From positions 1 through 41,381 of the forward strand of contig JAJFUE010000179.1 in assembly GCA_021372575.1 (NCBI GenBank): DNA of 41,381 bases, read 5' to 3'. Made by a program: the position numbers and the translations under genes. Numbering within the stretch: the first letter of the stretch is position 1; each line of letters opens with the position of its first letter. This document shows positions 8,262-37,700 of the stretch, one piece after another. The stretch is from a bacterium. Its GTDB lineage: Bacteria; Sumerlaeota; Sumerlaeia; MVZB01. Below the pieces are notes generated by a model that made no database searches, was not told where the DNA came from, and saw only the letters and a program-made list of their open reading frames with translations.

Positions 8262-8401
8262 TACTTTTGATATCGTGGCTCGCCCGAGAAGGCGCCACCG
8301 GCTTCGGCGAGGTGTTTTTTTTCGTTTTGGATCCTCTCCGCCGAATACTACATCATTATATAACAAAGGGGGCGCAACGTCAGCGGTTGGGTGGGGCGGG
8401 A

Positions 8402-8437
8402 ATGGGAGTTATGGGAAGAATGGGATTTATGGGATTC
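8402..8437. repeat. 9-bp tandem repeat, four units (ATGGGANNN variant)
   Basis: Four consecutive 9-mers, ATGGGAGTT, ATGGGAAGA, ATGGGATTT and ATGGGATTC, lie just downstream of the blaR1-like stop codon. They belong to the same 9-bp-period family as the arrays at 11926, 12705, 18106, 23103 and 24090. Confidence 0.7.
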
Positions 8438-8448
8438 AGTTAATTGAC

Positions 8449-11400
8449 TTATCGTGGGCCATCCTTTGGCGGGGATTGCGATGTTTTGTCGGCGGATGAA
8501 GGGGGGGAAATCGGCCGGCGGAAACGGTCGCCGATGCGGTGGCTGTCGAGCTGGCCGTTGTTCGCGAAGTCCATCAGTTGCCGGCGGTATTTCTCGGCTG
8601 CTGCGAACTGCTTCTGGTTCACGAGCTCGTCGATCAGGTCGGCGTAGGTGGTTTCGGAGAACCCTTTGAGTGCGGGCCATTCGGTGACGGCGCGCAGCCA
8701 GGCCTCGATGGCTTTGTCGCGCATCCCGAGGTTGCGGTAGCAAAGGCCGATCTCGCGCAGCGCCGGCTCGGACTGGATCCAGCCCGGGTATTTGCGGTGG
8801 ATCTTGTCGTTGGCGTCGATGCATTGCGCCCAGCGGCTGGTGCGGAAGAAGTCGTTCGCCTGGTTGTAAAGCACGGCGGCCTCGGTCGTCGGCGCGTCGA
8901 TGTAACGGTCTTCACCTAAGATGATGCGCCTGCCCACGACTTGTGGCGAGGTAGCGATCGGCGCGACTTCGACCGAGCTGACCGTTACGGCGCTGCCGAG
9001 AGCGGGGCCGATGCCGATTCGCGAGATCACGTCGGCGTAGTTGCCGAAGGCTTCGTGGTGCAGCTGGCCGTCAACGAGTACGCGCATGCGGTCGGGCAGG
9101 ATGTCCCACTGGATGTTGTGCCACATATTTGGCGTGACGAAGCCTTTGCCCGCAACACCGGTCTGGCTGATCGTGTTCAGATCGTGCACCCGTAGCTGCG
9201 ATTGATCGACTTCCCAATTGAAGATCAATTCGCCCCAGCCGAAGCCGCCGTAATAGACGCGGATGTTGGTCGAGTCGGTCTTGGCGCGCATGCGGATCGA
9301 GAGCGGGGGCTGGAAAAGGAGGCGCGTGGTCAGCCGAGGGCAATCGGCGAGTTGGTCGGCGGTGATGATCGCGTTGCCATCCTCTTTTTGAACGCGCGCG
9401 CCGTTGAATGCGACCATTTCGTCGAGAAGATTGCCGGTGGGCGCGGTTAGTTTGCGGACGCCCAGTTGCTCGAGCCCGACTTGCTTGCCGTTGATCTTGA
9501 TCGTGACGATGAATTCGCCCGTGTTGTCGAAATGGTTCGAGTCGGCCACGCCGAGGTAGAGCCGCCCGCTGCCGTCAGCCTTAATGGTGCTGTTGCGGCC
9601 GAGAATGAACTGCGTCGCGTTCTCCCTGGCATCGATTTTCCCGATCAAGGCCAGAAAACGGGTCGAGTTCTCGACCGTTCCTTCGGGCCCCCAGGGTCCG
9701 TACGACGAGTCACGCCTGCGCGAAGAAGTCCCAAAGACTTTTCCCTCGGCCGAGATCTCGATCTCGTCGCCGGCCTTGAGGTCGATATTCGTATCCGACC
9801 ACTGGCGGACAGGCGAGACGCGAATGCGACCGTCGGGTGCCGGCATCACGATCAGGGCGCCGGATTCGAAATGGCCGGTGGGATCGGCCGGCGTCGCGAA
9901 CGACTGTTGCGCCGGAGATTGATCGAGCGAGCTTTTTTCAAAGGCCATCGGAGTTTTCGATATGCTCGCGGTGAATTCGCCGCTGTTGTCCTGGAATTGC
10001 GGGTGGCGGTCGTTGACAGCGAGGTAGAGTTCGCCCGTGTCATTGATGCGAGAGAAACCACCTTCAGCGGAGGGCGCGGCGGCTGGCTGCTTATCGTATT
10101 TTGAACCGACGAAGAACACTTTCGTGCCGACCTTGCCGATCAGGCCGCCGCACGGGCCGGCGGGCATCAGGAATTCGTGCGGGGCGCCGCAGCTTTCGTT
10201 GGGGGTGCGGCCGGCACCTTCGGGGCCGACTTTGGGCAGGCCGGGATCCCAGCTGACAGAGCCGGTCGCGGTGATGTGCAGGACGTCGCCGGGGGCGACC
10301 ATCACGCCGGTCGCGACCCATTCGTGTTCGGCATCGGCCTTGGCCGGGACAGTGATCGTCTTGGCTGAGGCGGCCGTGCCGGCTTGGTTCCATTTCGAGC
10401 GGTCGGCGCGGGCGTTGACGTCTGCGCCGCGTGAAATCAGGAAATTGGCGAGCTGGGAATGGCCGCGTTCGACGGCGATGGCCAGGGGCGTGCGGCCGAT
10501 GTCGTCCTTCGCGTCGATCTCGGCGCCGGCGGTGAGCAGGGCCTCGGCGATGTCCTGATGGCCGCCGTTGACGGCAAGGTGCAGGGCTGTCTCGCCCTGG
10601 TCGTCGCGGGTCTTGACGTCCGCGCCTTTCTTGAGCAGGTCCTGAACGGCCTTGAGATCGCCGCTCTTCGCCGCGAAAAGGAGCGGCGGCATGCCCGCGC
10701 CGAGTTCCTCGAGCATCTGCGCGAACTCGGGTTGGTTATATTGCCGCGCGAAATCGAGCGGTGTTTTGCCTTGGGTCTCGGTCGCGTTGATGTCGGCGCC
10801 GGCCGTGAGGAGCGGTTTCACGACCGATGTTTTGCCCTTCATGGCCGCCCAGTGCAGGGCGGTGCGGCCGAGGCGATCACTCGCCTTCACGTCGGCGCCC
10901 TTGCCGATCAGGAACGCGGTCATGCCTTCGTGGCCGTATTCGGCGGCATACATGAGCGGGGTCTTGCCCTGGGGGTCTTTTGCGTTGATGTTGGCGTCGC
11001 CGGCGAGGATCGCGGCCGCGGTCTCCTGATGGCCGCCGATGACGGCCAGGTCGAGCGGCGTGAGGCCGTCGCGGTTGACGGTGTTCACGTTGGCCCCCTT
11101 GGCGATGAGCAGCTTGACCATGTCGGGCCGGCCGGTCATGGCGGCGCGGTGGAGGGGCGTGAGGCTTGGGTCATTCGGTTGCACCTCGGCCATCGGGAGG
11201 CTTGCGATCGCGAAGAGCGCGAGGGCGGCCCAACTCCAGACGGTCAGGCGGCGGACTTTGGATTCCTGGTTCATGATTTCCTCCAGCCTTCTTTGCAAGC
11301 GGGTGTTGCGTTCGAAAATTCCAAGGAAACCGAGGGCGACGGCGGAACGGCCGCGCGCCTCGAGCAGGACTTTGAGCAGCGATTCGCCGTAACGGCGCGG

Positions 11401-12291
11401 CTCGCTCAAGCCGCTTTCGAGGGCGGCTTCATCGCACGCGCACTCGCGCTCGTGCCGAAGCTGCGCGCCGGCCAGCCACACCAGCGGGTGGAACCAGAAG
11501 AGCGCTTGGACGAGGATTTGGAGCCATCCGGCCAGAATGTCGCGGCGGCGCCAGTGGATCAGTTCGTGGAGAAGGACGTCGTCGAGCTGGTCGGGGGTGA
11601 GGGAGGATGGGAGCGCGGCCGGCAGAACGATGCGGGGACGTAAAAGACCAAATAAGAATGGGCTGGTCACGGCGCCGGAGAGGATGAGCGCGGGGGGATT
11701 GCGTCTGCCGATGCGGAGGGCGAGTTTTTCGATCGCGATCGCGAGGGGGCCTTCGTCGATGAGGGAGCCGCGGGAGAGGGTGCGCGTGAGGATGAGGTAG
11801 CGAACGAGGATGAACGAGGAGAGGCCGAGGAACCCGGCCGACCAGATGAGGAGCAGGATGGAGCTGAGGGACCACGGTTGGGACGTCGGCGTGGGCGATG
11901 GCGGCGTGGCGGGGGGATTGGGGGGATAGGTCTTATAGGTCTCATAGGTCTTATGGGTCTCATGGGAGGGGGTAAGCGTTGGCTTTTTATCGATGGTCGG
12001 TTGGACGACCGGCTCGGTTGCCGGCTGCGGTTGCGGGGGTGTGGTTTCGATGCGGACGGTGACGGGGCGCCAGTGGAGGTAGTTGCCGATGCTCCAGGCG
12101 GCGCCGATCGTGGGGGGCGTCAGGGCCTTCACGATCACGAGCATCCAGAGCAGGTAGCGGAACCGCGCCGAAAGGCGGCGCGACAGGAACGCCACGAGCG
12201 CGATCAGGATGATGAGGACGGCGATCTGCCAGCTTGCGGCCGCCGCCCAGCCCGCCCACGCCTCAGCCCATGTTTCCACGTGCGTGTTCAT
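8449..12291 (-). CDS. BlaR1/MecR1-type M56 protease fused to ankyrin, LecA-like, LamG-like and TPR modules
   Basis: A 1280-residue membrane receptor. Residues 1-370 are the BlaR1 core: transmembrane segments near 20-38, 45-60, 143-167 and 351-369, and the M56 zinc protease motif HELIHWRRRD (H242, E243, H246), with ERECACDEAAL further on as the likely third-ligand region. The usual penicillin-binding sensor domain is missing. Instead there are eight ankyrin repeats (376-630), two beta-sandwich modules resembling PA-IL/LecA (about 643-780 and 805-935), a LamG-like module (about 945-1115) and TPR-like helices (about 1135-1245). The gene overlaps blaI by 4 bp (ATGA), so the two are translationally coupled. 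By analogy a ligand outside would trigger zinc-protease-dependent loss of BlaI; the ligand is not a beta-lactam on present evidence. A 9-bp repeat array encodes KTY units at residues 112-122. Confidence 0.88.
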   Translation of the reverse strand: MNTHVETWAEAWAGWAAAASWQIAVLIILIALVAFLSRRLSARFRYLLWMLVIVKALTPPTIGAAWSIGNYLHWRPVTVRIETTPPQPQPATEPVVQPTIDKKPTLTPSHETHKTYETYKTYPPNPPATPPSPTPTSQPWSLSSILLLIWSAGFLGLSSFILVRYLILTRTLSRGSLIDEGPLAIAIEKLALRIGRRNPPALILSGAVTSPFLFGLLRPRIVLPAALPSSLTPDQLDDVLLHELIHWRRRDILAGWLQILVQALFWFHPLVWLAGAQLRHERECACDEAALESGLSEPRRYGESLLKVLLEARGRSAVALGFLGIFERNTRLQRRLEEIMNQESKVRRLTVWSWAALALFAIASLPMAEVQPNDPSLTPLHRAAMTGRPDMVKLLIAKGANVNTVNRDGLTPLDLAVIGGHQETAAAILAGDANINAKDPQGKTPLMYAAEYGHEGMTAFLIGKGADVKASDRLGRTALHWAAMKGKTSVVKPLLTAGADINATETQGKTPLDFARQYNQPEFAQMLEELGAGMPPLLFAAKSGDLKAVQDLLKKGADVKTRDDQGETALHLAVNGGHQDIAEALLTAGAEIDAKDDIGRTPLAIAVERGHSQLANFLISRGADVNARADRSKWNQAGTAASAKTITVPAKADAEHEWVATGVMVAPGDVLHITATGSVSWDPGLPKVGPEGAGRTPNESCGAPHEFLMPAGPCGGLIGKVGTKVFFVGSKYDKQPAAAPSAEGGFSRINDTGELYLAVNDRHPQFQDNSGEFTASISKTPMAFEKSSLDQSPAQQSFATPADPTGHFESGALIVMPAPDGRIRVSPVRQWSDTNIDLKAGDEIEISAEGKVFGTSSRRRDSSYGPWGPEGTVENSTRFLALIGKIDARENATQFILGRNSTIKADGSGRLYLGVADSNHFDNTGEFIVTIKINGKQVGLEQLGVRKLTAPTGNLLDEMVAFNGARVQKEDGNAIITADQLADCPRLTTRLLFQPPLSIRMRAKTDSTNIRVYYGGFGWGELIFNWEVDQSQLRVHDLNTISQTGVAGKGFVTPNMWHNIQWDILPDRMRVLVDGQLHHEAFGNYADVISRIGIGPALGSAVTVSSVEVAPIATSPQVVGRRIILGEDRYIDAPTTEAAVLYNQANDFFRTSRWAQCIDANDKIHRKYPGWIQSEPALREIGLCYRNLGMRDKAIEAWLRAVTEWPALKGFSETTYADLIDELVNQKQFAAAEKYRRQLMDFANNGQLDSHRIGDRFRRPISPPSSADKTSQSPPKDGPR
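11926..11966. repeat. 9-bp tandem repeat inside the blaR1-like gene
   Basis: About 4.5 units: ATAGGTCTT, ATAGGTCTC, ATAGGTCTT, ATGGGTCTC and ATGGG. The period of three codons keeps the frame and is read on the minus strand as HETHKTYETYKTY in the linker between the second and third membrane segments. It matches the intergenic arrays of the same family. Confidence 0.9.
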
Positions 12292-12680
12292 TCGGCGCTT
12301 CCTTTGCGTTGTTTCTCAAGAATTTTCTCGAGTTGCGCGATTTCGGCGTCGGAGAGGTCGGCCGAGCCCTCGATGAAATGCAGGATCGGCATGAGGCGGC
12401 CGTCGAGGACGTGCTCGACGAAGCCCTTGAGCTCGCGGCGGGTGACCTGCTCGCGGGTGACGGCAGGTTGATAGAGATAGGAGTTGCCGACCTGCTCATA
12501 GGTGACGGCGCCTTTGGCGACGAGGCGCGACAGGAGCGTTTTGACCGTTTTGATCGCCCAGCCGTGGCCCTCGGGGAGTGCGGCGAAGACATCGCGGGCG
12601 GCCATGGGACCGCGATCCCAGAGGGTTTTGATGACCTCGAGCTCGGCTGAGGAGATGGCGGGAACAGGTTTGTCGGACAC
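12288..12680 (-). CDS. blaI: BlaI/MecI/CopY family transcriptional repressor
   Basis: 130 residues. An N-terminal winged helix (about 8-72) has the family landmarks ISSAELEVIKTLWDRGPMAA, then WAIKTVKTLLSRLVAKGAV as recognition helix and wing, and a YLYQPAVTREQ strand. The C-terminal helices (about 78-125) form the dimerisation domain. H101-F102 sits where staphylococcal BlaI is cut (Asn101-Phe102), so regulated proteolysis is plausible. The start codon is GTG (12678-12680), supported by AAAGAGG about 7 nt upstream and by homology from residue 8. It is the first gene of a two-gene operon with the BlaR1-like receptor (4-bp overlap). A consensus BlaI operator lies in the promoter spacer, so it very likely represses its own operon; other targets may exist elsewhere. 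No beta-lactamase gene is adjacent. Confidence 0.95.
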   Translation of the reverse strand: MSDKPVPAISSAELEVIKTLWDRGPMAARDVFAALPEGHGWAIKTVKTLLSRLVAKGAVTYEQVGNSYLYQPAVTREQVTRRELKGFVEHVLDGRLMPILHFIEGSADLSDAEIAQLEKILEKQRKGSAE

Positions 12681-12704: not shown

Positions 12705-12720
12705 TAATAGGTCTTATAGG
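12705..12720. repeat. Short 9-bp repeat remnant in the blaI leader
   Basis: About 1.8 units (AATAGGTCTTATAGG) of the 9-bp family lie in the 5' untranslated region of blaI. Confidence 0.6.
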
Positions 12721-12796
12721 ACACGGGGTCCCGCTTCAAACAGCGAAATTAGCCGGCAACAACGTGGCCGGGGACATCTCTTGCCTATGCCAATAA

Positions 12797-12826
12797 TCTA
12801 TAGCCTACACGTGTAGTCGTTGTCAA
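12797..12826 (-). promoter_or_regulatory. Promoter of the blaI-blaR1 operon
   Basis: On the minus strand a perfect -35 TTGACA (12821-12826) and a -10 TATAGA (12797-12802) are 18 bp apart. The start is expected near 12790, giving a leader of about 110 nt. The BlaI operator fills most of the spacer. Confidence 0.85.
12805..12816. promoter_or_regulatory. BlaI/MecI-type operator
   Basis: The perfect 12-bp palindrome CTACACGTGTAG contains the TACA-NN-TGTA core recognised by BlaI/MecI repressors. It lies between the -35 and -10 of the blaI promoter, where bound repressor would block polymerase. Confidence 0.9.
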
Positions 12827-12851: not shown

Positions 12852-12880
12852 TTGATTATTTGCGAGAATTCCGTTACTAT
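12852..12880 (+). promoter_or_regulatory. Promoter of the tetR-efflux operon
   Basis: TTGATT (12852-12857) and TACTAT (12875-12880) are spaced 17 bp. The -10 is overlapped by the TetR-type operator. This promoter is divergent from the blaI promoter, whose -35 starts only 26 bp away. Confidence 0.8.
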
Positions 12881-12898
12881 ACCGTCTGGTCGGTATAG
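12877..12898. promoter_or_regulatory. TetR-type operator
   Basis: A perfect 8-bp inverted repeat, CTATACCG-N6-CGGTATAG. It covers the end of the -10 and the expected transcription start, 42 bp before the tetR start codon, as expected for autorepression. Confidence 0.85.
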
Positions 12899-12940: not shown

Positions 12941-13492
12941 ATGGCTCGCCCAAATTCGATCAATAACATCCTGGACGCCGCCGAGTCGATCGTTCTTGAC
13001 GAGGGGGGCGCCCATCTGACGCTTGACGCGGTCGCCGAGCGCTGCGGCCTCAGCAAGGGCGGCCTGATCTACCATTTTCCGACGAAGGAAGCCCTGCTGC
13101 AGGGAATGATCGAGCGGTTCGAGGTGAAGCTCGAAGCCATGCGCAAAGAGATTCGTTCGCATAACGGGAATGGGGAAAATTCCAATGAGCTGGCGATCGA
13201 TATCACGATGATGCGGGATCTATCGCCGGATGATTACCGGTTGAGCGCGGCGCTGCTGGCGGTGATCGCCAATCAGCCCGAGCTGATGCACCCGTTCCGC
13301 GATCAACACTATAAGCGCTTCTGGGAAACCTTGGTCCCCGTCAATTCATTCAAGCGCTCGTCGGTCCTGTTATTTGCGGCGATGGGCCTGCATTTCCACG
13401 AACTGTTGCATATCTCGATCGTAAGCGGCGATCAGCGCAGGGAGATTTTTGACGAACTTCTGCGCCTTGCGGATTCCAAGAAAGAAATTTGA
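12941..13492 (+). CDS. TetR/AcrR family transcriptional regulator
   Basis: 183 residues. The N-terminal helix-turn-helix (about residues 26-47: TLDAVAERCGLSKGGLIYHF) is a clear TetR_N domain, followed by PTKEALLQGMIERF. The C-terminal ligand-binding and dimerisation part (about 60-183) is alpha-helical and unspecific by eye. It is the first gene of an operon with the RND adaptor (36-bp gap) and pump. A perfect inverted repeat overlaps its promoter, so it most likely represses its own operon and is released by a pump substrate. The ATG at 12941 is set by homology at residue 2 onward. The inducer cannot be read from the sequence. Confidence 0.93.
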   Translation: MARPNSINNILDAAESIVLDEGGAHLTLDAVAERCGLSKGGLIYHFPTKEALLQGMIERFEVKLEAMRKEIRSHNGNGENSNELAIDITMMRDLSPDDYRLSAALLAVIANQPELMHPFRDQHYKRFWETLVPVNSFKRSSVLLFAAMGLHFHELLHISIVSGDQRREIFDELLRLADSKKEI

Positions 13493-13528: not shown

Positions 13529-14914
13529 ATGATGTCGTTCTTGTTCCCGAGCCTCAAGACCAGCCGCCGGCTGAAACTGCTGATTTCGGCAGTGGTCATC
13601 GCCATTGTCGCCGTGCCGATTATTTACGTCGTGCATCGCGCGACCGCGGCCGAAGGCGGCAAGGGCGGACCGGGAGGGCCGGGCCAGATGCCGCCGCCGG
13701 AGGTGGCCTACGTGACGATGAAGTCCGAGCGCGTCACGATCACGACCGAGTTGCCGGGCCGGACGTCGCCGCTGCTGGTGGCGGAGGTGCGCCCGCAGGT
13801 GAGCGGGATCATCCTGAAACGGCTGTTCCGCGAGGGCGCGGACGTCAAGGAAGGCGACCTGCTCTACCAGATCGACCCGGCGGTTTACCAGGCCGCCGTG
13901 GAAAACGCGGAAGCCAACCTGAATGCCGCGAAGAAGGCGGTCGATCGCGCGGTGGCCAACCTCAAGTCGGCGCAGGCCAACGTCGTCCAGCAAAAGGCCA
14001 CGCTGGAGTATGCGACGACGAACCTCAAGCGGATGGACGCGCTGGCGAAGAAGGGGGTCATCTCCCCGGACGAGCGCGACAAGGCCTCGACCGCGGCGCG
14101 GGTGGCCGAGGCGCTGTCGCGGAATCTGGAGTCCCAGGTGAGCAACGCGCGCGAGGCGGTCGCCGAAGCCGAGGCGGCCGTGAAGCAGGCTGAGGCCGCG
14201 GTGAAAACGGCCAAGATCAATTTGGACTACACCAAGATCACGGCGCCGATTTCGGGGCGCATCGGCATGTCGAACGTCACGGTGGGCGCGCTGGTGACGG
14301 CGCACCAGGCGGTGGCGCTGACATCGATTCAGCAGTTAGACCCGATCTTTGTCGATGTGCCGCAATCGACCGCCGAACTGCTTCGCCTGCGCCGCAGCAT
14401 CGAGCGGAACAAAACGCTCGACGGCGATCAGAACACGATGCGCCGGGTGCGGCTGATCCTTGAAGATGGCCAGCCTTATTCGAAGGAAGGGACGCTGGAA
14501 TTTCGCGACGTGACGGTTGACCCGTCCACCGGCTCGGTGACGTTCCGCATGGTTTTTCCGAATCCGGACACGGTTCTGCTGCCGGGCATGTTCGTGCGCG
14601 CGATCATCACGGAGGGTGTGAGCCCGAAGGCGCTGCGCGTGCCGCAGCAGGCGGTTTCGCGCGACACGAAGGCGCAGCCGATCGCGATGGTCGTGAACGC
14701 CGCCGGCAAGGTCGAGCAGAGAATCCTGAAGCTCGACCGGGCGATGGGGGACCAGTGGCTGGTGCAGGATGGGCTCGCCGAAGGCGACCGCGTGATCGTG
14801 GAGGGCCTGCAGAAGGTCCGCCCCGGCGCGGAGGTCAAGGCCGTTCCATTCAAGCAGGCGCAGGCCGCCGTCGCGGCCGACCAGACGACGAAACCCGCCA
14901 CGGACATGAAGTAA
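13529..14914 (+). CDS. RND efflux periplasmic adaptor (membrane fusion protein, AcrA type)
   Basis: 461 residues. An N-terminal membrane anchor (about 15-36, no lipobox) is followed by a Gly/Pro linker and the lipoyl half-motif with VRPQVSGIILKRLFREGADV. A long alpha-helical coiled-coil hairpin (about 120-230, Ala/Lys/Glu-rich) and the second lipoyl half (TKITAPISGRIG, about 234-246) follow, then the beta-barrel (DPIFVDVPQSTAELL) and the membrane-proximal domain. It bridges the inner-membrane pump to an outer-membrane channel. Two ATGs in tandem (13529, 13532) follow AGAGAGGG. The RND pump gene begins 12 bp downstream. No TolC/OprM-type gene follows in the window. Confidence 0.95.
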   Translation: MMSFLFPSLKTSRRLKLLISAVVIAIVAVPIIYVVHRATAAEGGKGGPGGPGQMPPPEVAYVTMKSERVTITTELPGRTSPLLVAEVRPQVSGIILKRLFREGADVKEGDLLYQIDPAVYQAAVENAEANLNAAKKAVDRAVANLKSAQANVVQQKATLEYATTNLKRMDALAKKGVISPDERDKASTAARVAEALSRNLESQVSNAREAVAEAEAAVKQAEAAVKTAKINLDYTKITAPISGRIGMSNVTVGALVTAHQAVALTSIQQLDPIFVDVPQSTAELLRLRRSIERNKTLDGDQNTMRRVRLILEDGQPYSKEGTLEFRDVTVDPSTGSVTFRMVFPNPDTVLLPGMFVRAIITEGVSPKALRVPQQAVSRDTKAQPIAMVVNAAGKVEQRILKLDRAMGDQWLVQDGLAEGDRVIVEGLQKVRPGAEVKAVPFKQAQAAVAADQTTKPATDMK

Positions 14915-14926
14915 CGGAGACCAGAG

Positions 14927-17900
14927 ATGCTGTCCAAATTCTTCCTCGATCGACCCGTTTTTGCCTGGGTGATCGCCATTACGATCATGGTTGCCGGCGG
15001 GCTGGCGATTTACAAGCTGCCCGTGGCGCAATACCCGCCGATCGCGCCGCCGTCGATCTCGATTGAGGCCTTCTACCCGGGCGCGTCGGCCGAAACGGTC
15101 GAGAACACGATCACCCAGATCATCGAACAGAAGATGACGGGCTTCGACAACCTGCTCTACATGTCGTCGAAGAGCCTTTCCTCGGGCTCGAGCCGTACCG
15201 AGCTGACATTCGCGCCGGGGACGGATCCGGACTTTGCATGGTCGCAGGTGCAGAACAAGCTGCAACTCGCGATGGCGAGCCTGCCGGACGTCGTGCAGCG
15301 CCAGGGCGTCAAGGTCAGCAAATCGACGCGAAATTACCTGATCATCGTCGGACTCACCACCGACGACGGCAGCATGAGCATGTGGGACCTCGGCGACTAC
15401 GCGCAGTCGAAGGTCGAACAGGTGCTGTCGCGCGTTCCCGGCGTCGGCGAGGTTGAAATCTTCGGCGGCCAGTATGCGATGCGCGTGTGGCTCGATTCGG
15501 AAAAGCTGACGAAATATCAGATGACGATCAGCGACGTGGTGGGGGCGCTTCAGTCATACAACGTCCAGGTTTCGGCGGGGCAGTTCGGCGCGCCGCCGGC
15601 GGTCGAAGGCCAGCGGCTGAATGCGTCGATCATCGTCCAGAACCTGCTCAGCACGCCTGATGAATTTGCCAACGTCCCGCTGCGGATCAACCCGGACGGC
15701 TCGACCGTTCGCGTAAAGGACGTGGGCAGCACCGAACTCGGCGCCGAGCGTTACGGATTCGATGTTCGATACAACGGCAGGCCCACGACGGCACTGGCGG
15801 TGCGCCAGGCGGCCGGCGCCAACGCGCTCGAGACGGCCGACAACATCAAAAAGACAATGGATGATCTTTCCCGATTCTTCCCCAAGGGGATGAAGGTCAT
15901 CTATCCATACGACACGACCCCGTTCGTCAAGGTCGCGATCGAAGAAGTGTTTAAGACGCTGTTCGAGGCGATTTTCCTCGTCTTCCTCGTCATGTACCTG
16001 TTCATGGGCAACCTGCGCGCGACCATGATCCCGACGATTGCCGTGCCGGTCGTGCTTCTGGGCACATTCGCCACGCTTGCCTTCTTCGACTTTTCGGTCA
16101 ACATGCTGACAATGTTTGCGATGGTGCTCGCGATCGGCTTGCTGGTCGATGATGCAATTGTCGTGGTGGAGAACGTTGAGCGGTTGATGGTCGAGGAAGG
16201 CCTCTCACCTTATGATGCCACCTCAAAATCAATGGAGCAGATCACCAGCGCGCTGATCGGCATCGGACTGGTGCTGTCGGCCGTGTTTGGACCGATGGCG
16301 TTCTTTCCCGGTTCAACCGGCGTTATCTACCGGCAATTCTCGGTGACGATCGTATCCTCGATGGCGCTGTCGGTGCTGGTCGCGCTGATCCTGACGCCCG
16401 TGCTTTGCGCTTCGCTACTTAAGCCGGTTGCGAAGGGCCATGAACCGGCGGAGAACTCGTTCAAGCTCGTCAGGCCGTTCTTCATCTGGTTTGACCGCGC
16501 CTTTTTCAAGGTCAGGGATGTCTATGTGGACTTCGTGGGCCATGCCCTGGCGAAGAAGCTTCGCTACATGCTTGCCTTCATCCTGATCGTCGTGACGATG
16601 GGTTATCTCTTCCAGCGCATGCCCACCTCGTACTTGCCCGACGAGGACCAGGGGATCATGTTCGTCCAGGCCACATTGCCGACCGGATCGACACTGGAGC
16701 AGACGCGGGCCGTCCTGGACCAGGTTCAGAAATACCTGGACGCCCATGAGACCGAAATGGTCGAATCGGTGATGTCGATTGCGGGATCGAGCTTTGCCGG
16801 CCAGGCGCAAAATGCAGGCATGGCATTCGTGAAGCTCAAGGACTGGGATCTACGCAAACGCGGAGATCTCAAGGTTGGCGCGCTTGTCGGGCGTTGCATG
16901 AAGGAGTTTTCGCAAATCCGCAATGCGCAAGTGTTTGCCTTCCCGCCCCCATCCGTCGTCGAACTGGGCACGGCGAACGGTTTCGACATGCAACTGGTCG
17001 ATCGCGGCGGCCTGGACCACCAGGCGATGATTAACGCACGCGACCAGCTGGTCGAGCTTGCGAACAAGGATTCGCGGCTCACGCGCGTGCGGCTTAACGG
17101 GTTAAATGACGTCCCCGAGTACCGCCTCGACGTGAACTGGGAGCAGGCGGGCGCGCTCAAACTTTCGATCAACTCGATTCACAATACGATTTCAGCCGCG
17201 TTTGGCAGCGCCTACGCCAACGATTTCGTTCAGAACGGCCGCGTCAAGCGCGTTTACGTACAGTCCTCGCAAAAAGACCGCATGCTCCCGGAGGACATCA
17301 ACAAGCTTTACGTTCGTAATACGGAATCGAAAATGGTGCCGTTTTCAGCATTTGCCACGGGCAAGTGGACGTACGGTCCCCAGATGCTCGAACGCTTCAA
17401 CGGCTTCCCTTCGTCCAACATTCAGGGAGAGCCGGTTCAGGGGCGAAGCTCTGGCGAGGCAATGGCCATCATGCAAGAGCTTACCCAAAAGCTCCCGGTC
17501 GGTTTCGACAGCGATTGGCAGGGCCTGTCATATCAGGAGCGCCAGGGCGGGGCGCAGGCCCCGTACCTGTATGCGTTCTCCGTGCTCGTGATCTTCCTGT
17601 GCCTCGCGGCGCTGTATGAAAGCTGGCCGATCCCGATTTCGATTTTGCTGGCGCTGCCGCTGGGCGTGATCGGCGGCGTGATCGCCACCTCGCTGCGCGG
17701 ATATCCGAACGACGTGTACTTTCAGATCGGGCTGCTTACCACGTTGGGACTGACGACGAAGAACGCGATTTTGATCGTGCAGTTCGCGAAGGCGCGCGTG
17801 GAGCAGGGATTAAGCCTCACGGACGCGACGCTCGAAGCGGCCAAGCTTCGTTTGCGCCCGATCATCATGACCTCGCTCGCGTTCGGGTTCGGAGTCCTGC

Positions 17901-18100
17901 CGCTGGCAATCGCCAACGGAGCCGGCGCCGGAGCGCAGAAGGCGATCGGCACGGGCGTGCTCGGCGGCGTCGTGACCTCGACGTTCCTCGTCACGATCTT
18001 CGCGCCGCTGTTCTACGTGCTGATCGAGAAGACGTTCGGCAAAACGAGCCGCGCGAAGGCGGCCGAAGCGGTTGCGGCGGAGTCGCCGGGGGCGAAGTAA
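14927..18100 (+). CDS. RND family efflux transporter, HAE-1 type inner-membrane pump (AcrB-like)
   Basis: 1057 residues, the usual AcrB length. It starts MLSKFFLDRPVFAWVIAI, as in HAE-1 pumps. There are twelve membrane segments in the 1+5+1+5 arrangement and two large periplasmic loops. The proton-relay acidic pair is D408/D409 in AIGLLVDDAIVVVENVER (AcrB D407/D408), and the partner lysine lies in LTTKNAILIVQFAK near 945. GYLFQRMPTSYLPDEDQG marks the second half. It exports amphipathic compounds by proton antiport. It is the third gene of the tetR operon, 12 bp after the adaptor. The outer-membrane factor must be encoded elsewhere. No terminator is seen after the gene. Confidence 0.97.
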   Translation: MLSKFFLDRPVFAWVIAITIMVAGGLAIYKLPVAQYPPIAPPSISIEAFYPGASAETVENTITQIIEQKMTGFDNLLYMSSKSLSSGSSRTELTFAPGTDPDFAWSQVQNKLQLAMASLPDVVQRQGVKVSKSTRNYLIIVGLTTDDGSMSMWDLGDYAQSKVEQVLSRVPGVGEVEIFGGQYAMRVWLDSEKLTKYQMTISDVVGALQSYNVQVSAGQFGAPPAVEGQRLNASIIVQNLLSTPDEFANVPLRINPDGSTVRVKDVGSTELGAERYGFDVRYNGRPTTALAVRQAAGANALETADNIKKTMDDLSRFFPKGMKVIYPYDTTPFVKVAIEEVFKTLFEAIFLVFLVMYLFMGNLRATMIPTIAVPVVLLGTFATLAFFDFSVNMLTMFAMVLAIGLLVDDAIVVVENVERLMVEEGLSPYDATSKSMEQITSALIGIGLVLSAVFGPMAFFPGSTGVIYRQFSVTIVSSMALSVLVALILTPVLCASLLKPVAKGHEPAENSFKLVRPFFIWFDRAFFKVRDVYVDFVGHALAKKLRYMLAFILIVVTMGYLFQRMPTSYLPDEDQGIMFVQATLPTGSTLEQTRAVLDQVQKYLDAHETEMVESVMSIAGSSFAGQAQNAGMAFVKLKDWDLRKRGDLKVGALVGRCMKEFSQIRNAQVFAFPPPSVVELGTANGFDMQLVDRGGLDHQAMINARDQLVELANKDSRLTRVRLNGLNDVPEYRLDVNWEQAGALKLSINSIHNTISAAFGSAYANDFVQNGRVKRVYVQSSQKDRMLPEDINKLYVRNTESKMVPFSAFATGKWTYGPQMLERFNGFPSSNIQGEPVQGRSSGEAMAIMQELTQKLPVGFDSDWQGLSYQERQGGAQAPYLYAFSVLVIFLCLAALYESWPIPISILLALPLGVIGGVIATSLRGYPNDVYFQIGLLTTLGLTTKNAILIVQFAKARVEQGLSLTDATLEAAKLRLRPIIMTSLAFGFGVLPLAIANGAGAGAQKAIGTGVLGGVVTSTFLVTIFAPLFYVLIEKTFGKTSRAKAAEAVAAESPGAK

Positions 18101-18105
18101 AAAGG

Positions 18106-18130
18106 CATGGGTTATAGGTCTTATAGGCCC
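18106..18130. repeat. 9-bp tandem repeat remnant
   Basis: Two to three degenerate units (ATGGGTTATAGGTCTTATAG) directly after the RND pump stop codon, of the same family as 24090-24170. Confidence 0.65.
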
Positions 18131-22877: not shown

Positions 22878-23102
22878 CCACGATTTTGGGCAATCGGCCG
22901 AAAGCGGGCCGGCACAGCCCGGGAAACATCAAAAACCCATTTATCATTGGGGATTTTTTGATATTCCGCATCGGGATGGCCGTGTATTTACAGGATCTGG
23001 GGAGAAGACATCAACGGGCGTTTGGGGGATGGATCAACGAGAAAGCGGATTTTCAGGGTCAAATTTATTGTCGGGCGGGGCGCATGCGAGTGATATGGTG
23101 AA

Positions 23103-23146
23103 TGGGTCCTATGGGTCCTATGCGTCCTATGCGTCCTATAAGTCCA
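23103..23146. repeat. 9-bp tandem repeat upstream of the M28 gene
   Basis: Units TGGGTCCTA, TGGGTCCTA, TGCGTCCTA and TGCGTCCTA, then degenerating. It ends about 35 bp before the M28 start codon. An open frame through it would read GPMGPMRPM, an artefact of the repeat. Confidence 0.9.
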
Positions 23147-24089: not shown

Positions 24090-24170
24090 GATGGGTCTCA
24101 TAGGTCTTATAGGTCGTATAGGTCCTATGAGTCCTATGAGTCCTATGGGGCCTATGGGGCCTATGGGTCA
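24090..24170. repeat. 9-bp tandem repeat array, about nine units
   Basis: The longest array of the family in the window. Units drift gradually from ATGGGTCTC and ATAGGTCTT to ATGAGTCCT and ATGGGGCCT. It lies between the M28 and heparinase genes. Confidence 0.93.
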
Positions 24171-30321: not shown

Positions 30322-33300
30322 CTACTCGAGAACCGCCCAACCGTGAGCACGGTTGACGACGCCCACGCCCGGGCCGATGCCGGTATAAACATCGCCGTAG
30401 TCGCCGTTGCATCCAACGGGGCCGCCCACGGAGTCGGCCGTTTTCAGCAGGTTGTTCATGTAGCGCACGTCGCCACCCGCTGCGTCGGAATAATTCGGGT
30501 TGGACGAAACGTCGCCCGTGCCGGCGGTGTAGCCCACGTTGGCCGTGGCGCCGAACACGTTGTTGTAGCTCGAATTGAACACGCTCGGCGAGGCGATCTG
30601 GGTCAGGTTGATCGCCTGAGCGCCCTGCGAATAGATGTTACTATTCGTGATGTTCATGATGATCGAGCCATTGGCCACGTTCCTCACGAGCGCTGAAGCC
30701 GGGGCAATGCCCAGGTGCACGAGGTCGCAGTGATCGAGGCTCAGCCGCACCGGGCTGCCCGTGCCGGCATTCTGCGAACCGGCATCCAACGTGCCGTAGG
30801 CCGCGTTGGTGCCGCCGGAGCCGAGCAGGACGCAGCGGTTCAGCGTGATGCTCGTCCCGAGCGGGCCGATCTTGCCGAACGCCGGATAGTTCATCGGGCC
30901 CTGGAAGATGCTGTTCTGGATGCGGCCGGTCCACTGGGAGGCGGCGTTGAAGGCAACAACCGGTCCCCACGGGATATTGGCGGTGCCGATGAGGGTGTTC
31001 TCACCGAAGGTGCCGATATCGACGTTGTTGAGGTTGAGCGTCGCGCTGGTGTAGCTCAGCCACAAGCCGGCACGGACGTAGCCCTTGATCCGGACGTGAT
31101 CCAAGGTGTAGGTCGGACCCGGGATCCTGCGCGTGACAGGGGTGCCGCCCGTCGGGCTGTTGTTGGACAGGTCAATGCCCGTGCAGCCGACGCGGTCGGT
31201 GGAGACGCCGCCCGCGGCGTAATCAGCGCGGTTCAGGTTCATGTTGACGTAGCGGAGCGTCACCGAGCACGGGTTCTGGTGGTGGGCAATGCCCGTCACC
31301 GGAGCATACGTGGTCGGGCCGGTTGACACGATGTCGCAGTTCTCGATGCGGACCGTGCTGCCGGTGGTCACGCCCATATAGATGTGGCCGACAGGCATGG
31401 TGGCGGCATTCGCGGTGCCCCACTTCATGTACTGGAAGGTAATCCGGCCGCCGCTCAGCGATCCGAGCTGGATCGTGACCGGGCTGGCGGTAACCCCAAG
31501 GATGATCGGACACGTGGTCGTATTGTCAGCCTGCTCGACCTTCGGAGACTGTCCGGCCGTGGCGATCAGGTTGACCGACTTGTTGATCCGGAGGTTCTCC
31601 TTGTAAGTCGCGCTGTTGACGATCTCGACGGTCTCGCCCTCGGCGGCCGCGTTGATGGCGGCCTGGATGGTGCCGTACTGCGTCGGGACCTTGATCGAGT
31701 TGATATCGACGGCGAAATTCGCCGTGACGCTGATGTCGGCGGTCACGTTCGTGTCGGTGCGGGCGGCCGTGAGGACGCCGTCACTCCAATTGACGAAGTG
31801 GTAGTTGGAGTTTGCGACCGCGGTCACCTGGGTGCCGTTGCCGCCGTGATCGACGGTCTGCGGCGTCGTGCCGCTGATCGTGCCATTTGAGCCGGCGGTG
31901 TAGGTCAGGGTGTGGGTGTTGATGGCGAAGGTGGCCGTGACGCTGATGTTCGCGGTCACGTTCGTGTCGGTGCGGGCGGCCGTGAGGACGCCGTCGCTCC
32001 AACTGACGAAGTGGTAGTTGGAGTTTGCGACCGCGGTCACCTGGCTGCCGTTGCCGCCGTGATCGACGGTCTGCGGCGTCGTGCCGGTGATCGTGCCGTT
32101 CGCGCCGGCCGTGTAGGTCAGCGTGAACTGCGTAAGCGCTTCGAATGTCGCCGTCGTGGTCAGGTCGGCCGTGAAGACGTCCTGGCGCGTCGGGTTGGTG
32201 CTGTTGTTGTCGAGCCACTTCGAGAAGGCATAGCCCGAGGCCGGGGCCGCCGTGACCGACGGGCCGCTGGCGCCGTGGTCGGCGGTGCCGGTGACGCTCG
32301 CGGCGCCGTTGACGGTGCCGTTTGCGCCCGCGACGTAGTTGTAGTTGTAAGTGTTGATCGCGAAGCTGGCCGTATGCGTCGCATTCGCGGCCACGTTGAA
32401 GTCGGTGCGCGGGTTGGACGTCAGGGCGTCTTCCCACTGCGTGAAGTGATACCCGGTCGCCGGGATCGCCGTCACAGGCGTGCCGTTCAGGTTCCAGCCG
32501 ATGACCTGCGAAAGCGTGCCGGTGACTTCACCGTTGGCCGCCGCTGCATAATTCACGGTGTAGGTGTCGAGGATGAAGTTGGCCTTGAAGATCTTGCTGG
32601 AGGTGATCGCCGTGTCGGTGCGCGACAGGCTCATGTTGCTGTCGCTCCAGCCACCCCACGTGTAGTGGGCGTTGACGGCCGCCGTCTTGGCCGGGCAGCT
32701 GTCGCCGGAGTTGATGTTGTACGTCGTCGAGGTGACGCCATCGATCGTGCCGCCCGCCGTCGGGTTGGCCGCATACCGGACGCCGATCTTGTTTTCGATC
32801 GTGCCGGAGGCGATGTCGCCGTAACCGGCGTCGATGCCGATCGGGCCGCCGAGCGCGTCAGCGGTCTTGAGCGCCGTGTTGCTGTAACGAACGTCGCCGG
32901 CCTCGGGATACAGATAACCCGGATCGACGGACAGATCGCCCGCACCGGCACCGACCGTGATGCCCGAGCTGGCTACCGGCCCGAACCAGTTATTGTTGTT
33001 CTCCACGATGCTGATTGGGAACGAAGTCGTATTCGCCAAATTAATAAACGCCGCGTTGTTAGCCGAGTAGACGTTGCAGTTGGTGACCGTCAGACTCGTC
33101 GCGGTGTTTGCGCGCTGGCTTGCCGGCCGGGCGAAGCACGCCACGTTCGTGAGCGTCGTCGTCGTCATGTCGACGATATCGCAATGGTCAAAGTGAATTT
33201 GTTGCGGTCTGGCAGCTGTCCAGGTGCCACCATTCGCATAGAAGGTAACGGGGCCATACCCGGCGCTCGCGCCCGGGGCCTGGCCGCCCGACGCATTGCG

Positions 33301-34720: not shown

Positions 34721-37700
34721 TTACCGTCCGATCCGCGCCCCGCTGGCGTAGGGTTCGATCCGGACGGGCTGCGTGATGCGCGCGCCGGCGGGCGTTGTGC
34801 CGCCAAGGTGCATCGTGCCGCCGCCCGTCAGTTCGCTGAGGCCCTCGTCCAGAGTGTTGAACGGCGTGTCCGGCGCGCCGGTCTCGACGCCAAAGTAGTT
34901 GAAGTTGACCCAGATTTGCGAGCCGTAGTAGGTCAGGTATTCGGTCCAGAGGTTGCTAGTCGCTTGAGCGGTGGCCGGGTCGATCGTCGTCGGGAACAGG
35001 CCGTATGGCTGGCTCAAATAGAAACCGTTGCCCGACAGGCCGGAGGTGTAGCTGGGCACGTCGCCGGTCGAGTCGGCCTGCCAGGCGAGCCAGTAGTTGC
35101 CGGCCGGAAGCGTCAGGCCGGTGACGGGGACGATGTTCCAGCCGCTCATGGCCGCCATTGAGGGGGACTGCCAGAGCAGGTTGCGCGGCGAGTTGTTGTC
35201 ATAGACCGCGAGGCGCAGGTTTCCCCTGGTCTCGTGCGAGTAGAAACGGACGTCCTTGACCGGGCCCTGCTCGGGCATCTGGATGAGGTTCGCGTGGACG
35301 AAGGTGTTGTAGGCGATGCCGATCTTCACGATCCTGCCCGGGACGGAGTTGGCCGCGAAGTAAGCGCAGCCGCGGCCGGCGTCGATGAGCGCCGGGCTTC
35401 GGAAGTTGCCCTCGCCGGAGCCCAGTGTCAGCGCACCGGCCTTCGTGAAATCGGAGAGGCGCACCTTGAGGACCATGCCCGGGTCGAGGCTCGTGCCGAA
35501 ATAGGCGTAACCGCCGGCCGTGTCGATGCCCGCGCTCGCGATCGCGGTTTCCTCGGAGCTCAGAGGCATCTCGCCGGTGATGGTGAAATCGTAGAGGCGG
35601 ACTTTGACGATGTTCGTGGGATTGGGATACGTGTATGGCGCGAAATACGCATATCCGCCCGCCGGATCGATCGTCGCGCTCTGCAGGTTTGACTCGGTCG
35701 AATTGAGCGTCAGGATGCCGTCACACAGGAAGTCCGACAGGCGGATCCGGGCCACCATGCCCGGGCTGGTGTTCGTGCCGAAATAAGCGTAACCGCGGCT
35801 GGAGTCGATGACCGCGCACTTGGGGCTGTTCAGGCCCGTGCCGAGCTTCAGGGTGTCGAGGACGGTGAAATCCGACAGCCGCACTTTGACGATCCGTCCG
35901 GGGCTCATCTCGGAGCCGAAGTAGGCATAGGTGCCGGCGGGGTCCATGACGGCGCACACGAGTGAATTGACGCCGGTGCTGAGAACGGCGACGCGCGTGA
36001 AGTCGGAGAGCCGGACCTTGACGATCTTGCCCGGGGCGGTGTAGGTGCCGAAGTAGGCGTATTCGCCGGCCGGATCGATGAGGGCGCTCGCGAGCCAGTC
36101 CTCGCCGGCGTTGAGCGAGAGGGCATCGACGCGCGCGAAGTCCGAGAGTCGGATCTTGACGACGATCCCCGGCTCGGTGCCCGTTCCGAAATACGCGTAG
36201 GTGCGGGTCGGGTCGATCACGGAACTGGCGAAGTAATTCTCGCCGGTCGGCAGCGTGATCGTGGCGGAGCGGGTGAAATCGGAGAGGCCCACCTTGACGA
36301 CTTTCGCCGGCGTCGTGCAGGTCCCGAAATACGCGAACTTTGCCGCCGGATCGATCAGCCCCGTCTTGACCAGCGTTTCGGTCTGCAGCGTCAGCGTGGA
36401 TTCGCGCGTGAACGACCCAAGGTTCACCTTGATCACGTGGCCGGGGTAGTTGTTCGTCGCGAAGTAACCGAACCCCGCGGCCGGATCGACCGCGGCGGTC
36501 GTGATGCGGTTCTCGCCTGAGTAGGCCGTGATCGCGCCGATGCGGCTGAACGTGGAGAGCCGGATCTTGACGATCGAGCCGGGTTCGGTGTCGGTGCCGA
36601 AATACGCGGCGTCGCCGGCCGGGTCGATTGCCGCGCTGACCGGAATGCTCTCTGGGAGCGTGATCGCGCCGGTGCGCGTGAACGTCGAGAGCGCGATCCG
36701 CACGATGGTGCCGGGAGACGTGTAGCAGCCGAAATACGCGTAGCCGCCGGCCGGGTCGATCGCCGCGCACTTGAGCGAGGACTCGCCGCTGGCGAGCCGG
36801 ATGTAACCGACGCGCGTGAAATCCGAGAGGCGGACCTTGACGATCGTCCCCGGGCTACCCCAGTTCGTGCCGAAATAGGCATAACCGGCGGCCGGGTCGA
36901 TCACCGCGCTCGTGAGGAGCGTCTCGCCGGCGTTGAGTGTCAGCGCGCCGACCCGCGTGAAGTCCGACAGGCGGATCTTGACGATCACGCCGGGATCGCC
37001 ATAGTTCGTGCCGAAATACGCGTAGCCCCCCGCTTGGTCGATCACCGCGCACATGATGTTGTTCTCGTATGCGTTGAGCGTGAGCGACGCCACGCGCGTG
37101 AAATCCGACAGGCGTACCTTGATGATGACCGACGGCGAGGACGCCGTCGCGAAATACGCGTAGCCGCCCGCCGGATCGATCACGCCGCAGTTGATCTGGC
37201 TTTCATTGTAGGTGCAGATCGTGTTGCCTTCGCGGCGCATGCCGGCGGAAGGGTAGTTGGTCGAGCCCACCGTGCTGTTGCCGGCCGCCGGGTCGGAGAA
37301 CGAGAGCGAGCGGTCGATGTGGGTGTGGCCTTTTTTGTCGGTGACGCGCAGAGAGATCCTATAGACCTGCTCCTTGAGCCCGCGCGCCTTCCAGTCGGCC
37401 CTGAACAGGGCGACCGGGTTGCCGGGCATCGCGCCGCCGAGGTTCATCGGCGCCGGCTTGAGCTGCACGGTCTCGAGGCCCTCGATCTCGGCTTCGACTT
37501 TCGCGACCCCGGCCGGGGCCTTGACCAGCGCCTGGATCGTCAGCGTGCCGCCGTTCTTGACGGACGGGGCAGAGAGGGTTGGGATGATGTGGATGCGCGA
37601 GTCACCGGTGCCGACCGGAGCGGGCGCCTTGGCCGCGAATGAAAACGATGGGACGAGCAGAAGGAGTGCCATCGTGAGGATTCGAATCCGCCGAACGAAA

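Follow-up and report, generated by a model that had tools for sequence, protein, structure and literature searches.

To our knowledge, BlaR1-BlaI has been described almost exclusively as a switch of beta-lactam resistance. BlaR1 has an N-out/C-out topology with four transmembrane (TM) segments and undergoes autocleavage at Ser283-Phe284, whereas BlaI is cleaved between Asn101 and Phe102, the Phe at P1' being almost invariant (PMC9834060). Here we describe a BlaI-M56 pair that resembles the BlaR1-BlaI and MecR1-MecI systems (S. aureus, B. licheniformis) in its M56 zinc protease, in four predicted TM segments, in a C-terminal sensor predicted to lie outside the cytoplasm, and in an adjacent BlaI with the cut-site Phe and a TACANNTGTA-type operator over the promoter. 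It differs from them in that the receptor has no penicillin-binding sensor and carries instead a module tail of about 910 residues; moreover, its operator was found only at its own promoter, and no resistance gene adjoins the pair.

The locus and its gene layout

The window, that is, the whole stretch of 41,381 nucleotides that we analysed, is one whole contig of a genome of 214 contigs and 4.6 Mb, from a bacterium belonging to the uncultured phylum Sumerlaeota. The blaI and M56 genes form a two-gene unit on the minus strand, in which the genes overlap by 4 nt. The features of the unit are the following (residues are those of the receptor):

8449-12291, minus strand: M56 receptor gene, 1280 aa, a single open frame with no internal stops
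12288-12680, minus strand: blaI, BlaI/MecI-family repressor (Penicillinase_R), 130 aa, GTG start
12805-12816: putative operator CTACACGTGTAG, of the BlaI type TACANNTGTA, within the minus-strand blaI promoter
11182-12291, minus strand: TM and M56 zinc-protease region, residues 1-370 (Pfam M56, BlaR1 structure match, hydropathy and charge)
10393-11181, minus strand: eight ankyrin repeats, residues 371-633 (Pfam Ank_2, E 1.5e-78, and reading by eye)
9922-10344, minus strand: first PA-IL/LecA-like module, residues 650-790 (Pfam PF07828, LecA in the PDB)
9457-9849, minus strand: second, divergent PA-IL-like module, residues 815-945 (independent profile; Pfam below cut-off)
8932-9444, minus strand: beta-rich module, residues 950-1120 (AlphaFold2 model and Foldseek)
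8512-8904, minus strand: TPR-like helical hairpins, residues 1130-1260 (TPR_1, tblastn, model helices)

An earlier note on this DNA had placed both genes at 8449-12680 and had read the receptor as one chain of 1280 residues with an unbroken frame, and this is confirmed. The GC3 of the M56 gene is 0.77-0.89 across every module; because it is uniformly high, the ORF looks like one coherent gene.

The repressor and its operator

BlaI matches Pfam PF03965 with an E value of 4e-30. In pairwise alignments with the BlaI/MecI matches in the PDB, its His101-Phe102 aligns with the Asn101-Phe102 cut site of S. aureus BlaI/MecI. The coupling of a BlaI repressor to the M56 protein, which had been claimed before, is seen in the adjacent gene, the winged-helix domain and the Phe at P1'. 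The operator CTACACGTGTAG lies between the -35 (TTGACA) and the -10 (TATAGA) of a promoter on the minus strand that is directed towards blaI, a pair that was not listed by a simple promoter scan. The 12-mer pattern CTACANNTGTAG has one occurrence in the 4.6 Mb genome, which is the operator at the blaI promoter. When other BlaI-M56 loci were inspected, TACANNTGTA was present upstream of blaI in 37 of 94, as compared to 0.2 in shuffles, and control palindromes and other spacings gave 0 in the same 94 upstream stretches. The predicted autorepression of blaI-M56 by BlaI is therefore well supported, both by the operator in the blaI promoter and by its recurrence in relatives.

CopY-type repressors also share the TACANNTGTA operator and the BlaI-like fold, and the window's BlaI scores 81 bits with TIGR02698, below the cut-off. 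Unlike them, however, it is paired with an M56 receptor, and a copper-ATPase gene is absent among the neighbours scanned.

We also observed a palindrome, CTATACCG-N6-CGGTATAG, at 12877-12898. A TetR gene (12941-13492) follows shortly after it and is succeeded by an RND efflux operon (13529-18100), and the palindrome is probably the TetR operator.

The M56 receptor core

Pfam Peptidase_M56 matches residues 20-337 with an E value of 3e-46 and 158 bits (curated cut-off 31), and the receptor matches by sequence the cryo-EM structure of BlaR1 (8exp) with an E value of 6.7e-6. The motif HELIHWRRRD occupies residues 242-251, with HELIH at 242-246, and the third-ligand motif ERECACDE starts at residue 281. 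In eight M56 homologues H242, E243, H246, E283 and D287 are invariant, and so the zinc site made of HExxH and a distal Glu is kept. Hydropathy predicts four TM segments, at about residues 11-44, 46-65, 139-169 and 349-370. Together with the positive-inside charge pattern, it predicts an N-out/C-out topology with the protease inside and the tail on the outer face, outside the cytoplasm and not away from any plausible ligand. Gly321-Phe322 is a possible candidate for an autocleavage site, as the counterpart of BlaR1 Ser283-Phe284. With its operator, the cut-site Phe102, the protease motif and the predicted four-TM topology, the BlaI-M56 circuit looks complete as far as its sequence can tell.

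Pfam gave no penicillin-binding transpeptidase match in the 1280-residue chain, and the BlaR1 equivalog model NF000326 scores 135 bits, below its cut-off of 400. The earlier reading of a standard M56 protease core with HELIHWRRRD, deprived of the penicillin-binding sensor, is in agreement with these results.

The modules of the tail

The tail of about 910 residues contains ankyrin, two PA-IL-like, concanavalin-like and TPR modules. The earlier note had listed eight ankyrin repeats, two LecA-like modules, a LamG-like module and TPRs; the ankyrin repeats, the two LecA-like modules and the TPRs were borne out, the LamG-like module in part, and no part of the tail appeared to fold as something unrelated. 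Pfam ankyrin families cover about residues 376-630, with E values down to 1.5e-78, and the repeats, counted by eye, are arranged as five (371-533) plus three (534-633).

The first LecA-like module is recognised by Pfam (PF07828 at residues 658-779, E 5.5e-8, above cut-off) and matches LecA in the PDB with an E value of 0.002; the calcium-loop motif VNDRHPQFQDNSG is found at residue 759. The second module (about 829-933) remains under the Pfam cut-off (E 0.07) and is recognised through a custom, independent profile, built exclusively from PA-IL modules of three other, unrelated bacterial genomes, with which it scores 48 bits, while 1000 shuffles peak at 7 bits; the motif VADSNHFDNTG is found at residue 915. 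Both modules belong to the same family as the galactophilic lectin PA-IL/LecA (PF07828) and have its Asp...Asp-Asn calcium-loop pattern, since the residues D, D and N are retained in both copies. They differ from LecA in being tandem, divergent and placed within a receptor, and in lacking His50 and Gln53, which are not conserved in the alignment of LecA with the PA-IL module. We take these two residues to be the sugar contacts of LecA, and the D, D, N positions to form its calcium loop. Since His50 and Gln53 are not conserved, sugar binding by the two modules is treated here as a hypothesis, and galactose binding in the manner of LecA is doubtful.

Residues 950-1120 are probably concanavalin/LamG-like. 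This segment has no Pfam match, and its single-sequence AlphaFold2 model is weak (pLDDT 53, pTM 0.56), but concanavalin-like folds, namely a GH16 glucanase and galectins, lead the Foldseek list obtained with this low-confidence model (E 7e-5 to 3e-4, TM about 0.4), which is suggestive. A match to the segment in genome G333 (L189) was discarded as chance, considering that it falls in an ORF that looks like an unrelated protein of peptidase type.

At the end of the chain, a TPR at residues 1177-1202 is below cut-off in the whole chain (E 7e-4), but TPR_1 passes it on the isolated segment (E 1.4e-6, 28.3 bits vs. a cut-off of 27.8). tblastn gave matches to residues from about 1130 to 1250 in many genomes. 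The AlphaFold2 model of the whole tail, made without homologues, has a pLDDT of 34 and is usable for secondary structure alone; it contains helices at the TPR-like end.

Swapped tails among relatives

The earlier note had set the giant multi-module tail against the usual penicillin-binding sensor, and here a correction is needed: long swapped tails are not exceptional but common on M56 receptors in Sumerlaeota, Planctomycetota and Verrucomicrobiota. In a set of 111 M56 proteins, which consists of the best matches to the window's receptor and relatives and is not a random sample, the tail has a median length of about 510 residues, reaches at least 910 in 15 proteins and has a maximum of 1648, and 110 Pfam families are represented in the tails of 76 relatives. 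In these phyla, then, an M56 receptor normally bears a giant swapped tail. Among the 76 tails the counts are 14 for PD40/WD40-type propellers, 11 for CarboxypepD_reg, 9 for Big_5, 5 each for ankyrin and LRR, and 4 for Laminin_G_3. Within the class, M56 tails include HEAT, TPR, beta-helix, Ig-like, toastrack and SPOR, and the window's own genome has 11 M56 genes, several of which have LRR, secretin-like, T2SSG or CarboxypepD_reg tails. The pairing with blaI also recurs: we collected 98 BlaI-M56 pairs with swapped tails in these three phyla, which have in common with the window's pair the gene order, the 4-nt overlap (29 of the 98), the operator and a long variable tail. The window's pair differs from them in that PA-IL is present on its receptor only, and in that those with ankyrin tails fall into another M56 clade.

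In fact, ankyrin arrays are also carried by five M56 proteins of Phycisphaerae (L143, L162, L136, L153 and L132), and the best-aligned of these tails begin right after TM4. These proteins form a separate clade: in a 35-row tree, with the ankyrin group defined by the trait before the tree was made, a single clade with the window's receptor was rejected (p-AU 2.4e-69). The M56 cores nearest to the window's receptor bear other tails, HEAT (L066) or Big_5 (L093-L097). It follows that ankyrin tails have arisen at least twice and that tails are swapped on similar cores.

The lectin-bearing combination is what sets this receptor apart. PA-IL was found in 4 of 386 sampled genomes, the window's genome included. 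The other genomes of the class lack it, and so do all other M56 tails of the collected set. A scan of genome contigs with the full protein gave no relative, and a search with the tail in 39 genomes of the class gave none either; a plasmid search gave ankyrin-level or partial matches only, none covering 80%. The lectin-bearing M56 architecture is unique within the material searched, and only this combination looks unusual. In a distant genome (G136), a 518-aa protein with a possible signal peptide (L177:958-2514) contains two tandem LecA-like modules.

Proposed ligand, mechanism and output

A ligand of glycan nature is plausible, considering the PA-IL and concanavalin-like folds in the tail. 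The proposal that the tail senses a glycan or surface ligand and not an antibiotic had already been made from the sequence; the absence of a domain that binds penicillin agrees with it, and so does the predicted position of the tail, with its binding modules, outside the cytoplasm, while the lack of LecA His50 and Gln53 weighs against it. Ankyrin and TPR modules normally bind proteins, and their presence, together with the partial loss of the LecA sugar residues, calls for caution about the glycan.

For the same reasons a different sensor has to be considered, in which the tail is a protein-interaction scaffold, the PA-IL and concanavalin-like folds are structural or protein-binding, and an envelope protein or damage is reported. 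The protein-binding habit of ankyrin and TPR, the only partial retention of the LecA sugar residues and the tails of the relatives, mostly beta-propeller, CarboxypepD_reg, Big, LRR and HEAT, speak for this scaffold, whereas PA-IL is a rare lectin family that is present here twice, with D, D and N of the calcium loop in both copies; we regard it as a possibility to be taken seriously, if not the expected one. Much less probable is that cell-wall or beta-lactam sensing persists by a route that the tail does not reveal, for instance through peptidoglycan fragments. The history of the family would fit, and a peptidoglycan fragment is reported to act in the BlaR1/BlaI system of B. licheniformis (PMC3305447), but the chain has no penicillin-binding transpeptidase match and the neighbours scanned include no beta-lactamase or PBP gene. 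That the assembly fused unrelated genes into the M56 ORF is very improbable: the contig comes from a MAG and the exact module architecture was met once only, but 1280 codons stand in one frame with uniformly high GC3, and in Phycisphaerae M56 proteins the ankyrin array likewise starts immediately behind TM4.

The reading that we favour, and to which we give an even chance, is that of a one-component receptor of the BlaR1 type with its repressor, which would derepress its own operon in response to a ligand outside the cytoplasm, plausibly a glycan. More tentatively, the tandem PA-IL and concanavalin-like modules may detect an external polysaccharide and so bring about BlaI cleavage, within a general BlaI-M56 platform with exchangeable tails in these phyla. 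For the ligand, the actual cutting of BlaI and the genes that respond, we infer the following sequence of events. Without ligand, BlaI would occupy the one operator, which overlaps the blaI promoter, and hold blaI-M56 expression low. The periplasmic tail would then bind its extracytoplasmic ligand, for which a polysaccharide or a glycosylated surface or matrix component is most likely, and binding would cause, by analogy with BlaR1, a shift in TM4 and the metalloprotease. The M56 protease would cut BlaI at His101-Phe102, and the promoter would be freed, together with any other, weaker sites.

No carbohydrate-use gene adjoins the BlaI-M56 pair. The M56 gene is separated by 281 nt from the next gene downstream, which has a promoter-like site of its own and matches no Pfam family. 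Directly behind the pair of the closest Sumerlaeota homologue, L066, stand two pectate-lyase genes (L066:280-3870), one of them with a malectin domain; this fits the carbohydrate theme indirectly, the L066 tail itself being HEAT-like. In three Planctomycetota MAGs, a nickel superoxide dismutase gene stands directly behind a BlaI-M56 pair with a Big_5 tail, recognised by Pfam in two of them (L093:7875-8366 and L094:7986-8543) and as a homologue at the same place in the third (L095:8218-8658). The output cannot be transferred from these closest homologues, because their tails are quite different (HEAT, Big_5) and three of them precede a nickel superoxide dismutase gene; a pectate-lyase or superoxide dismutase output was rejected, as neither gene is among the neighbours scanned at the window's pair.

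These results suggest that beta-lactam resistance is one specialised use of a general platform of membrane receptor and repressor, on which sensor tails can be exchanged and which is widespread among uncultured phyla. We found no description of swapped-tail M56 receptors in the literature searched, most subscription journals being outside its reach, and as far as that literature shows, BlaI-M56 with swapped tails is a broad, little-described receptor platform. Such M56/BlaI genes should not be annotated as beta-lactam sensors or resistance genes. The idea of a platform is directly testable, since the operator, the cut site and the active-site residues are all predicted.

Repeated sequences in the window

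A 9-nt repeat, ACCTATAAG, forms an array at 11926-11963 on the minus strand, in frame within the first predicted extracytoplasmic loop of the receptor, where it reads HKTYETYKTY. Similar repeats are dispersed in the window, at 8400-8436, 12707-12721, 18114-18128, 23102-23145 and 24091-24169 besides this array, and a 15-mer of the repeat has 123 copies in the genome at no more than one mismatch, as compared to 0 for the reversed control. Long tandem repeats are present at 31721-32125 and 35865-37183 (213 bp, 94% alike; units of 132-141 bp), where they overlap minus-strand ORFs of 1335 and 1001 aa.
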